From contig JAGSHB010000038.1 in assembly GCA_023954815.1 (NCBI GenBank), forward strand, positions 1 to 38,610: a stretch of 38,610 nucleotides of DNA, written 5' to 3'. Numbering within the stretch: the stretch's first letter is position 1; every line of letters begins with the position of its first letter. The position numbers and the translations under genes were made by a program. Under the pieces are notes generated by a model, which saw only the letters and a program-made list of their open reading frames with translations, was not told the DNA's origin and searched no databases. This stretch comes from Myxococcales bacterium (lineage in GTDB: Bacteria; Myxococcota_A; UBA9042). Positions 31,551 to 38,610 of the stretch are shown piece by piece.

Positions 31551-31647
31551 TGGCGGAAGTGCAGGGGAATCGAACCCCCCTGAGACGCTCGTCACGCCTC
31601 ACACCGGTTTTGAAGACCGGGGAACTCACCAGAGCCCACGCACCTCC
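31551..31647 (-). tRNA. selC: tRNA-Sec (anticodon UCA)
   Basis: This 97-base gene including an encoded CCA folds as a selenocysteine tRNA. The acceptor stem has 8 bp (GGAGGTGC with GCACTTCC, one G-U). The D stem has 6 bp with a 4-base loop (GGGCTC-TGGT-GAGTTC). The anticodon arm is CCGGT-CTTCAAA-ACCGG with UCA. A long variable arm has 7 bp (TGAGGCG with CGTCTCA). The T arm is GGGGG-TTCGATT-CCCCT with a first G-U pair, as in E. coli selC, and the discriminator is G. The long acceptor, extended D stem and UCA anticodon are specific to tRNA-Sec, so the organism should decode UGA as selenocysteine. No selA, selB or selD lies in this window. Confidence 0.96.
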
Positions 31648-35836: not shown

Positions 35837-36172
35837 ATGAAGATTATGCACTTCATCGCCGCTAGCGCCCTCGTTGCCGGAGCTCTGACAGTCACGGGTT
35901 GCAGTGGCAGCAAAAAAGCCGCCAAGGCGACGCCCGCCCCCACGCCAGCTGCGGCGCCCGCCTACCCGAGTTGCGCCACAGACGCGCACTGCGCCTCCCA
36001 CGCACAGGTCTGCGTCGCGGGCACCTGCAAGCAATGCCGTGAGCACGCTCAGTGCTCTTCGATGGGACCGTGCGGGCGCTGCGAAGCGAACGCGTGTGTC
36101 AAAGTCGCTGGCTGCTGCGCGACTGACGCCGACTGTGGCGGTGGACGCTGCCGCGGCGGCAAGTGCCGCTAA
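35837..36172 (+). CDS. Short Cys-rich lipoprotein, paralogue of the Pal N-terminal module
   Basis: A 111-residue lipoprotein with a signal peptide ending at TGC (Cys22), a Lys/Ala/Pro linker, and a domain (about 43-111) with some fifteen cysteines. The order YPSCATDAHC, VCVAGTCKQCREHAQC, ACVKVAGCCATDADCGGGRC matches the module at the start of the next gene's product (YPNCDGDDNC, YCVEKKCVQCRLTSHC, QCVRKQGCCANNLDC) at nearly every cysteine. This protein stops where the neighbour continues into an OmpA domain. The pattern resembles small disulfide-rich (Dickkopf-like) repeats. AGGAG lies about eleven bases before the ATG. It is the first gene of a probable three-gene unit with Pal and the CpoB-like protein. 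Confidence 0.85.
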   Translation: MKIMHFIAASALVAGALTVTGCSGSKKAAKATPAPTPAAAPAYPSCATDAHCASHAQVCVAGTCKQCREHAQCSSMGPCGRCEANACVKVAGCCATDADCGGGRCRGGKCR

Positions 36173-36231
36173 GCGACGATTCCGGCCTCTGTTACTGAGG
36201 TCGACGTAATCGTGCCGCCAAGATCATGCCG

Positions 36232-36264
36232 CGCCGGCATGCCCACCATTTGGGCATGCCGGCG
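36232..36264 (+). terminator. Perfect 14-bp inverted repeat before the Pal-like gene
   Basis: CGCCGGCATGCCCA (36232-36245) and TGGGCATGCCGGCG (36251-36264) pair perfectly around a five-base loop. No T run follows. It lies 60 bases after one lipoprotein stop and 28 bases before the next start, so it may partly terminate, stabilise, or process the transcript between the two genes. A protein-binding palindrome is the alternative. Confidence 0.5.
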
Positions 36265-36292
36265 TCGGTGCGAAACGCCTCTGGAGCCCGTC

Positions 36293-37072
36293 ATGTCCGT
36301 TGTTTTGCCCCGCTCACCTCTCGGTCCACTCTTGATCGCCGCCGCACTCTGGCTCGGCGCCTGTGGTCCGACGTACCCAAACTGCGATGGGGACGACAAC
36401 TGCAAGTCCAAGGGCGAGTACTGCGTGGAGAAGAAGTGCGTCCAGTGTCGACTGACCTCGCACTGTGCGAACGCGACGACCGACGCATGCGTCGCTTGCG
36501 ACAAAGGTCAATGCGTTCGCAAGCAAGGCTGCTGCGCCAACAATCTTGACTGCTCGGCGGGCAAGAAATGCAGCAGCAACAAGTGTGTCAACCAGTGCGC
36601 ATCGGACGCGGACTGCACCGGCGGTAAGATGTGTAACGAGCAGGGCGCATGCGTGAGCCCAGACGCATCCGGGTGCTCCACGGACGCCGATTGCGGCGGC
36701 AAACTCAAGTGCAAGTCTGGCAAGTGCGTCAACTCGGACGGCCTCTGCGAGCTGGTTCCGATCAACTTCGACTTCAATCGCTCCAACCTGAGCCGCGCTT
36801 CGCAGAACACCATCTCTGCTAACGCCCGGTGCTTCAAGGAGCGCAAGGTCAAGAGCATCACGGTCGAGGGCCACTGCGACGAGCGTGGTACGGACGCCTA
36901 CAACCTTGAGCTCGGCAACCGCCGCGCACGGGCAGTCAAGCGCTACCTCAAGGGCGTATCGCGTCGCCTGAAGGTTCGCACAGTCTCCTATGGCAAAGCG
37001 CGCCCGACCTGCAACGAAGCCTCCGAAAGCTGCTGGTCAGAAAATCGCCGTGCTGAGTTCAAGGCTCGGTAA
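36293..37072 (+). CDS. pal: Pal-like OmpA-family lipoprotein with Cys-rich N-terminal module
   Basis: A 259-residue lipoprotein: signal peptide with lipobox LGAC (Cys24), about twenty cysteines in repeated CxxDxDC-type units (about 30-152), then an OmpA/Pal peptidoglycan-binding domain (153-259). The domain shows INFDFNRSNL, VEGHCDERGTDAYNLELGNRRARAVKRYL and NRRAEF, matching Pal, including the conserved Asp/Arg region that grips diaminopimelate. Unusually, the Pal alanine of GHADERG is Cys here, and three more Cys (180, 240, 247) suggest disulfides inside the domain. TGGAG lies seven bases before the ATG at 36293. No tolB or tolQRA is present upstream; the CpoB-like gene follows two bases after the stop. 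Confidence 0.88.
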   Translation: MSVVLPRSPLGPLLIAAALWLGACGPTYPNCDGDDNCKSKGEYCVEKKCVQCRLTSHCANATTDACVACDKGQCVRKQGCCANNLDCSAGKKCSSNKCVNQCASDADCTGGKMCNEQGACVSPDASGCSTDADCGGKLKCKSGKCVNSDGLCELVPINFDFNRSNLSRASQNTISANARCFKERKVKSITVEGHCDERGTDAYNLELGNRRARAVKRYLKGVSRRLKVRTVSYGKARPTCNEASESCWSENRRAEFKAR

Positions 37073-37074
37073 TC

Positions 37075-38610
37075 GTGCGTCATTGTCGCTCCCTCCTAGT
37101 CAGCCTTCTGCTGCTCATCGGGCTGTCCGTTCTGTCGAGCGGTTGCGCGACGACGGGCCGTGTCGCGCTGCTAGAAGCCCGTATTATCAAGCTGGAACGG
37201 GATCGCGCCGCTGTTCGACTGCAATATCAGCGCGACCAGAAGCGGATGAAACGCCTTCGCGCGGAAATTGAGAGCAGCTCCGATTTTCTGCGACGAAATG
37301 GCGCGCAAATGACATCCAAACTCGACGACCTAGAGGATGCCGGTCGGCGTGGCAAGGGTGCGCGAGAGGTGCTGAGTCACCGCTTGAGCCAGGTGAGCAA
37401 GACGAGCAAGAGCGACCACGTGAAGCTAGAACGTGTCGACGGTCGCGTGAGCCAGTTGATCGCTGATCTGCGGGATCGAGCGGGCATCACCATCTTGGCG
37501 TTGCCGCGCGAGCTACCGGATCACGCGAACGATTGGGTCAAGCTCGCGGAGAATCGGTTCGGTTGGGGCGAAGTCCGGGTCGCTGAAGCGATCGCAAAGG
37601 AGTGCCGCAAGCGCTTTCAAGGTACCAAGCAGGCTGGGCGGTGCGGGCTCATTCAGGCACGAATCGCCTATGAAGAGCATCGATTCGGCGACGCTGTGTT
37701 GACCTACCGGGCTGTACACGACGGCCTCGATGGCAAACCGGTGTTGGAAGTCGCGGCTGCGCTGCTGGGAATCGCGACGACATTCGAGGCCCAGGGTAAA
37801 TGCAAACAAGCGCGCGACGTGCTGGGCTATGTCTCCACTCTGATGAAGCGCAAGGGAAAGGCAGCGCGGGCGGCCAAAGAGCTGCTCAAGACGCAGCCGC
37901 GGCGGTGCTCCGCTGGCAAGGTCGTGTTGCCACCACGCACATCGGGACAGCTGAAACTCGCTGCTGAAGCCAAGAAGAAGGCGGAGGCTGAAGCGCTGGC
38001 CAAAGCGGAGGCCGAGCGTCGTGCCGCGGCGGAGGCCAAGCGAAAGGCTGAGGAAGCCGCTATCCAGAAAGCGCGCTCCGAACGGGACGCGAAGGCCAAG
38101 GCGGACGAGGCAGCAGCGGCTGAAAAGGCGGCGGCCGAAAAAGCAGCGGCGGCCAAAAAAGCGGCGGCCGAAAAAGCGGCGGCCGAAAAAGCGGCGGCCG
38201 AAAAAGCGGCGGCCGAAAAAGCGGCGGTGACGAAGAGCGCTGGCAAAACGGAGAAAGCTCGGCCAGCCGCAACATCTGGCAAGTCGGGGAGCCCGGCTAA
38301 GGTCAGCGACAAGACGACAACCAAGAAAGCGGTCCGCCCTGCCACGCCGAAGTCGAAGTCAGGAAAGGCGGCAGCGCCGGCAGAGAAAGCGGCGAAGAAG
38401 ACTGCCAGGACCAAACCGACGACGGCCACCAAGACGAAGGCCGTGAATACAAAGTCGACGGCCAAGAAGCCGACCGCGAAGAAGCCGGCCACGAAGAAGC
38501 CGGCCACGAAGAAGCCGGCCACGAAGAAGCCGGCCACGAAGAAGCCGGCCACGAAGAAGCCGGGACCTAAGGCGAAACCGAGCAGCAAGCCCGCCAAACC
38601 AGTGAAAAAG
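37075..38610 (+). CDS. CpoB/YbgF-like coiled-coil and TPR lipoprotein (partial, runs off window)
   Basis: Reading from GTG at 37075, two bases after the pal-like stop, the frame is open for 512 codons to the window end. The start MRHCRSLLVSLLLLIGL with SSGC (Cys24) is a lipoprotein signal. Residues about 30-140 are a charged coiled coil (IIKLERDRAAVRLQYQ, LDDLEDAG). Residues about 158-280 have TPR-like helices (FGWGEVRVAEAIAKECRKRF, ARIAYEEHRFGDAVLTYRAV). This order and the place after pal match CpoB/YbgF, the Tol-Pal partner that coordinates outer-membrane constriction with septal peptidoglycan synthesis. From about 305 it is an Ala/Glu/Lys then Lys/Pro/Ala/Thr low-complexity tail, which CpoB lacks. 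The start codon is inferred from the signal peptide. The true end is not in view. Confidence 0.8.
   Translation, partial: MRHCRSLLVSLLLLIGLSVLSSGCATTGRVALLEARIIKLERDRAAVRLQYQRDQKRMKRLRAEIESSSDFLRRNGAQMTSKLDDLEDAGRRGKGAREVLSHRLSQVSKTSKSDHVKLERVDGRVSQLIADLRDRAGITILALPRELPDHANDWVKLAENRFGWGEVRVAEAIAKECRKRFQGTKQAGRCGLIQARIAYEEHRFGDAVLTYRAVHDGLDGKPVLEVAAALLGIATTFEAQGKCKQARDVLGYVSTLMKRKGKAARAAKELLKTQPRRCSAGKVVLPPRTSGQLKLAAEAKKKAEAEALAKAEAERRAAAEAKRKAEEAAIQKARSERDAKAKADEAAAAEKAAAEKAAAAKKAAAEKAAAEKAAAEKAAAEKAAVTKSAGKTEKARPAATSGKSGSPAKVSDKTTTKKAVRPATPKSKSGKAAAPAEKAAKKTARTKPTTATKTKAVNTKSTAKKPTAKKPATKKPATKKPATKKPATKKPATKKPGPKAKPSSKPAKPVKK
38128..38229. repeat. 15-bp tandem repeat coding for AAAEK
   Basis: The unit gcggcggccgaaaaa occurs in four perfect consecutive copies (38161-38220), with one exact and one variant copy just before and a partial one after. 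It encodes repeated Ala-Ala-Ala-Glu-Lys in the lipoprotein tail, likely helical. Confidence 0.9.
38461..38565. repeat. 15-bp tandem repeat coding for TKKPA
   Basis: The unit acgaagaagccggcc is repeated about seven times (four identical central copies, degenerate flanks) and encodes Thr-Lys-Lys-Pro-Ala. It makes a strongly basic, histone-H1-like tail that could bind anionic polymers. The reverse strand of this region gives a long artefactual frame. Confidence 0.92.

Follow-up and report, generated by a model that had tools for sequence, protein, structure and literature searches.

Why should a free Cys-rich lipoprotein be encoded right beside a Pal-like lipoprotein that has a Cys-rich region of its own, and do the two belong to an unusual Tol-Pal system? 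The question is raised by the terminal 2.8 kb of the window, that is, the whole 38,610-nucleotide stretch of DNA analysed here, which is the entire contig C226 of a 6.44 Mb draft genome. Three lipoprotein genes lie there on one strand (+) at the contig end, and the coordinates and gene content given for them in a first-pass annotation were correct. The features are listed below.

35837-36172, + strand: free Cys-rich lipoprotein, 111 aa; ATG at 35837, signal peptide, lipid Cys22, Ala/Pro-rich spacer and Cys module
35963-36166, + strand: residues 43-110 of the free lipoprotein, its Cys module, a paralogue of Pal residues 28-98
36293-37072, + strand: Cys-rich Pal, 259 aa; ATG at 36293, lipid Cys24, Cys-rich stalk and C-terminal OmpA/Pal domain
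36374-36586, + strand: Pal stalk part 1 (residues 28-98), common to Pal and the free lipoprotein
36587-36733, + strand: Pal stalk part 2 (residues 99-147), with more Cys repeats, in Pal only
36767-37030, + strand: OmpA/Pal peptidoglycan-binding domain; Asp196/Arg211 kept, with extra invariant Cys180, Cys240 and Cys247
37075-38610, + strand: CpoB/YbgF-type lipoprotein; GTG start, lipid Cys24, coiled coil, TPR region and Lys/Ala/Pro-rich tail

The lipoboxes are VTGC (Cys22) in the free lipoprotein, LGAC (Cys24) in Pal and SSGC (Cys24) in CpoB, and 120 bp separate the free lipoprotein gene from pal in the window. The third ORF, starting with GTG at 37075, crosses the contig end at 38610 and is therefore incomplete. 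In the relatives, the next gene after the trio is mnmG. The genes upstream encode ABC transporters, a NUDIX protein and an F-type ATP synthase, and these neighbours are not kept with the trio across the family. A functional tie of the ABC-transporter genes to the trio was considered and rejected: they adjoin pal in two other same-genus genomes and partly in L061, but elsewhere in the family they do not. Further upstream, ARAGORN called a selenocysteine tRNA with anticodon TCA (31551-31647, - strand), which suggests selenoprotein synthesis in this organism. Another lipoprotein, P0004 (30270-31016, + strand), has several Cys residues and a Gly/Thr/Asp-rich repeat stretch; it matched no Pfam or NCBIfam family and occupies the same position in same-genus genomes and in G009.

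The two Cys-rich regions proved to be related. Residues 43-110 of the free lipoprotein are 40% identical to residues 28-98 of Pal, and the global alignment of these regions scored 152, compared with 80.7 ± 13.3 for shuffled sequences (z 5.4). Every Cys was held in place in the 5000 shuffles, none of which reached 152 (0/5000), so the two modules are homologous beyond their Cys composition. Genome-wide, Pal was the sole significant match to the free lipoprotein besides itself (E 6.8e-8; next E 0.018), and a profile of the Pal stalk retrieved the free lipoprotein at E 1.3e-16. The first-pass annotation had already proposed this relationship, which holds on the Cys-fixed shuffle, the genome search and the matching order of predicted strands. 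It had also placed the shared region in the first 150 residues of Pal, and here a correction is needed: the actual span is about 71 residues (28-98), and residues 99-147, with DUF7107/Dickkopf_N-like repeats scoring below cut-off, occur in Pal only. Neither Pfam nor NCBIfam named a family for the free lipoprotein, and its Cys module found no solved relative in sequence or fold searches. Scorpion-toxin matches of the module (E above 4) were weak and judged to be due to chance.

Structure prediction of both Cys modules had been set beforehand as a test of their relatedness, and the predicted folds agree. The AlphaFold models place short helices and hairpins in the same order in the Pal stalk and the free module, with strands at 43-45, 48-50, 67-70, 73-76, 91-94 and 97-100 in Pal and at 58-60, 63-65, 80-83 and 86-89, plus a last short pair, in the free module. 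Block pLDDT was approximately 86-94 over both modules, exceeding 90 for most of the free one, with a pTM of about 0.5, and the alignments behind the models, drawn from the window proteins and related loci, were shallow (8-10 rows). On these models, the Pal stalk appears as ordered hairpin repeats (pLDDT about 90), and its fold would be one of small beta-hairpin Cys repeats.

As for the remainder of Pal, its C-terminal domain is, judging from its sequence, a genuine Pal/OmpA domain. The PF00691 match was above cut-off and the best PDB fold match was 2hqs, the E. coli TolB/Pal complex (E 1.5e-10). The Pal model TIGR02802 matched at E 2.2e-31 with 108 bits and did not reach its equivalog cut-off of 125.35, which is a curated limit on scores and not a biological property; the OmpA domain covers nearly the whole model, and we therefore describe the protein as a divergent Pal variant. 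Among 33 class-level orthologues, the lipid Cys, the stalk Cys residues from 31 to 98 and Asp196 and Arg211 of the OmpA domain are all invariant. The Asp/Arg pair of OmpA domains binds peptidoglycan. Cys247, one of the extra Cys residues, lies just outside the Pfam match for the OmpA domain. Weak matches of Pal comprised three stretches resembling the Cys repeats of TIGR04201, DUF7107 and Dickkopf_N, as well as NF033763 (TraB). The genome has 13 OmpA-domain matches, of which the window Pal was the one Pal-like protein found; the others inspected were of TSP3/porin or coiled-coil types, and no better Pal candidate was present among the 13. The fusion of one Cys-rich copy to a peptidoglycan-binding OmpA domain, as proposed from the sequence, is thus borne out by the best-matching Pal models and solved Pal structures. 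Calling the Cys-rich region a surface module was not justified, since nothing indicates surface exposure and a periplasmic location is expected for a Pal stalk.

The gene following pal was also identified correctly as encoding a CpoB/YbgF-like coiled-coil/TPR lipoprotein. Although the window sequence alone gave weak matches only, the CpoB family profile (A6) matched 6g5s, the solved CpoB of E. coli, with E 4.7e-14 and YbgF with 7.8e-11; TPR families were detected in 10/17 family members and TolA_bind_tri in 7/17. The family CpoB has a long Lys/Ala/Pro-rich repetitive tail (37935-38610, + strand), and the contig breaks inside this repeat. Class relatives outside the family have a CpoB of approximately 250-275 aa without such a tail.

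tolB and tolQRA had been reported as missing upstream of the trio, which is correct for that position, but they are present elsewhere in the genome. A search for them found a TolQ-like, a TolR-like and a third gene together where contig C136 ends, and C273 carries a TolB-like gene; all TolB, TolQ and TolR matches were under their equivalog cut-offs. In G053, G062, G295, G208 and other genomes, tolQ and tolB are separated by no more than about 4 kb, with pal far off or on another contig, while members of the window's family (e.g., G008, G012) have tolQ and tolB on separate contigs. At L113:6901-9058 and L112:7250-8914, tolQ, tolR and the third gene were likewise seen together, with tolB on another contig. 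Split layouts of the type tolQRAB//pal-cpoB have been published (PMC12204202).

How widespread are these genes? Pal relatives were detected in 53/53 relatives searched, the strong full-length Cys-rich form being that of the family and of nearly all the class. With a profile threshold of E 1e-6, the Cys-stalk profile matched 224 of 373 Myxococcota genomes, approximately 40% of the phylum's genomes being without a match; named records among the matches were mostly Myxococcales and Sandaracinaceae, pointing to Myxococcota as the phylum. The window Pal alone as query returned no match in the contig scan, but an alignment query did. Because some of the 224 matches are other Cys-rich proteins, 20 loci outside the family were inspected individually: the stalk and the OmpA domain were in a single ORF in all 20, and cpoB was the next gene in 19 of them. 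In the family and class set, CpoB followed Pal everywhere except for four second-copy Pals (L074, L079, L084 and L092). These second Cys-rich Pals without cpoB belong to genomes G008, G029, G032 and G024.

The free paralogue has a narrower distribution. Conservation of the gene trio across related genomes had been chosen in advance as a test, and a free module was found upstream of pal in 18/18 first-copy family loci, among them the window (17 were detected with a profile and L065 with tblastn); the synteny between the free lipoprotein and pal is kept over approximately ten genera. Outside the family, two f7 loci (L086, L098) have the module upstream of pal; it is rare elsewhere, and unlinked copies were seen in G024, G028, G035 and G038. 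The description of this locus as lineage-specific is consequently right for the free paralogue and wrong for the pair of Cys-rich Pal and cpoB, which is phylum-wide in Myxococcota.

In a phylogenetic tree, the free modules formed one clade (support 100/97), separate from that of the family's Pal stalks (100/96); the tree included seven free-module rows and 73 columns, and the deeper branching order lies beyond its resolution. The separate, well-supported clades place the duplication before the family's spread and rule out a recent tandem duplication. In the window's genus, the free lipoprotein is under purifying selection, with dN/dS values of 0.07-0.15 against same-genus orthologues, similar to those of Pal, and it was therefore rejected as a pseudogene or spurious short ORF. 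One same-genus genome (L063) has a degenerate free lipoprotein. In other genera, the free module is down to two repeats or one while the gene position is unchanged. At L073 and L076, a long Ala/Pro spacer precedes the one Cys repeat left in the free lipoprotein, a stepwise loss with position kept, so a complete module is not required in every case.

Taken together, we consider it likely that this is an ordinary split Tol-Pal system, in which Pal has a disulfide-braced stalk acting as a spacer and to which a paralogue of the stalk has been added that lacks a domain for binding the wall. The computation shows the parts, their homology, gene order, distribution and selection. The locus would represent the pal-cpoB half of the split system in a Myxococcota bacterium. 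Pal tethers the outer membrane to the wall, its movement being driven by TolB/TolQRA (review PMC7391070), and CpoB links Tol-Pal to wall synthesis (PMC4458516). Here, the lipid would anchor Pal in the outer membrane, and a disulfide-braced stalk of beta-hairpin Cys repeats would replace the flexible linker of E. coli Pal. The OmpA domain would bind peptidoglycan and, by homology, TolB. As in E. coli, the movement of Pal would depend on TolQRA and TolB, whose genes lie elsewhere. Lipidated CpoB has been reported for most non-proteobacteria and is regarded as the ancestral form (PMC12204202), and the CpoB of this locus would be of that kind. The free lipoprotein would have arisen by duplication of that half of the Pal stalk which lies nearer the membrane, with a single origin before the family diversified; the copy retained the outer-membrane anchor but not the domain that binds the wall. 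Its most likely place is in the outer membrane next to the Pal stalk, where it may share a binding partner with the stalk or adjust it. Disulfide formation and the spacer role are what we infer for the stalk, and the function proposed for the free lipoprotein, like any septal role, is of the same kind. Naming the locus a variant of the constriction machinery, as was done initially, goes further than this evidence.

Alternatively, the free lipoprotein could be independent of Pal, for instance one of the small secreted or surface Cys-rich lipoproteins common in myxobacteria, whose position is a leftover of the duplication. Cys-rich candidates are numerous in these genomes (169 at first look in its own), module length varies between genera and a 120-bp gap precedes pal in the window, all of which is consistent with this explanation. 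However, synteny with pal across some ten family genera and a genome without another close homologue of the free lipoprotein argue against it, and we see it as a possibility of limited weight. The opposite proposal is that of a dedicated Pal partner, a lineage-specific regulator that would bind the stalk as a hetero-oligomer or through a mixed disulfide and set when or where Pal couples outer membrane and wall. It draws on synteny and shared ancestry: the gene directly precedes pal, both on one strand, in all first-copy family loci and lies upstream of it also in the second family f7, the homologous module occurs in both proteins, and purifying selection is strong in the window's genus. Yet several genera have lost most of the module, down to one or two repeats, despite the kept synteny, most of the class has no free module beside pal, and four genomes carry unlinked copies, which together make a partnership of this type unlikely. 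Finally, that the Cys-rich Pal is an unrelated OmpA-domain lipoprotein outside the Tol-Pal system, as its TIGR02802 score below cut-off and the lack of linkage between pal and tolQRAB might suggest, is very improbable given the CpoB orthologue downstream throughout the phylum, Pal proteins as nearest solved structures, no better Pal candidate among the genome's OmpA-domain matches and the split pal-cpoB loci known elsewhere (PMC12204202).

The trio is real and conserved, with the phylum-wide Cys-rich Pal as its more interesting part and the free paralogue as its more uncertain one. Pal is among the principal connections of the outer membrane to the wall, and the part between its lipid and OmpA domain is usually seen as a simple flexible linker. 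If its Cys residues are invariant across a phylum, the Cys-rich stalk would alter the reach and stiffness of Pal and make it depend on oxidative folding. No description of a Cys-rich Pal stalk was found in our literature search, subscription papers being outside its coverage. At its furthest, the argument would have Pal of Myxococcota as a rigid disulfide-braced rod setting or regulating the spacing between outer membrane and wall, with one family adding a free stalk lipoprotein to control the grip of Pal on the wall; we hold this to be quite improbable. If true, it would bear on a preprint (PMC12132463) according to which outer-membrane division in M. xanthus is not coupled to the wall as long as Pal is not overproduced, a report that makes the structure of Pal in Myxococcota worth testing. 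The Cys-rich Pal thus offers a concrete reason to compare outer-membrane division between E. coli and Myxococcota, a phylum of predatory and social bacteria.

Compared with known systems, the window Pal resembles E. coli Pal (1oap, 2hqs; TIGR02802) in its outer-membrane lipobox, its C-terminal OmpA domain with the Asp/Arg pair and the adjoining cpoB. It differs in that approximately 125 residues of Cys-rich stalk separate the OmpA domain from the lipid anchor, in the extra invariant Cys residues inside that domain and in a pal gene that is not linked to tolB. TIGR04201 (Myxo_Cys_RPT), DUF7107 and Dickkopf_N have Cys spacing similar to the Pal repeats, but all scored below their curated cut-offs and none describes the YPxC...CRxxxxC...GCC module. 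In myxobacteria, the Cys-rich stalk protein TraA and its partner TraB, which has an OmpA domain, carry out outer membrane exchange. The likeness to TraA/TraB lies in the Cys-rich extracytoplasmic repeats and in the OmpA domain of TraB, whereas the window proteins differ in architecture and size, and surface exposure is not indicated here. The third protein shares with CpoB/YbgF (6g5s, 2xev) the coiled coil followed by a TPR region and the position directly after pal, but it is lipidated and its family has the long Lys/Ala/Pro-rich tail. The gene partition is identical to that of the published split tol-pal loci (PMC12204202), with tolQRAB distant from pal-cpoB, and the window's family differs from these in having tolB apart from tolQRA as well.
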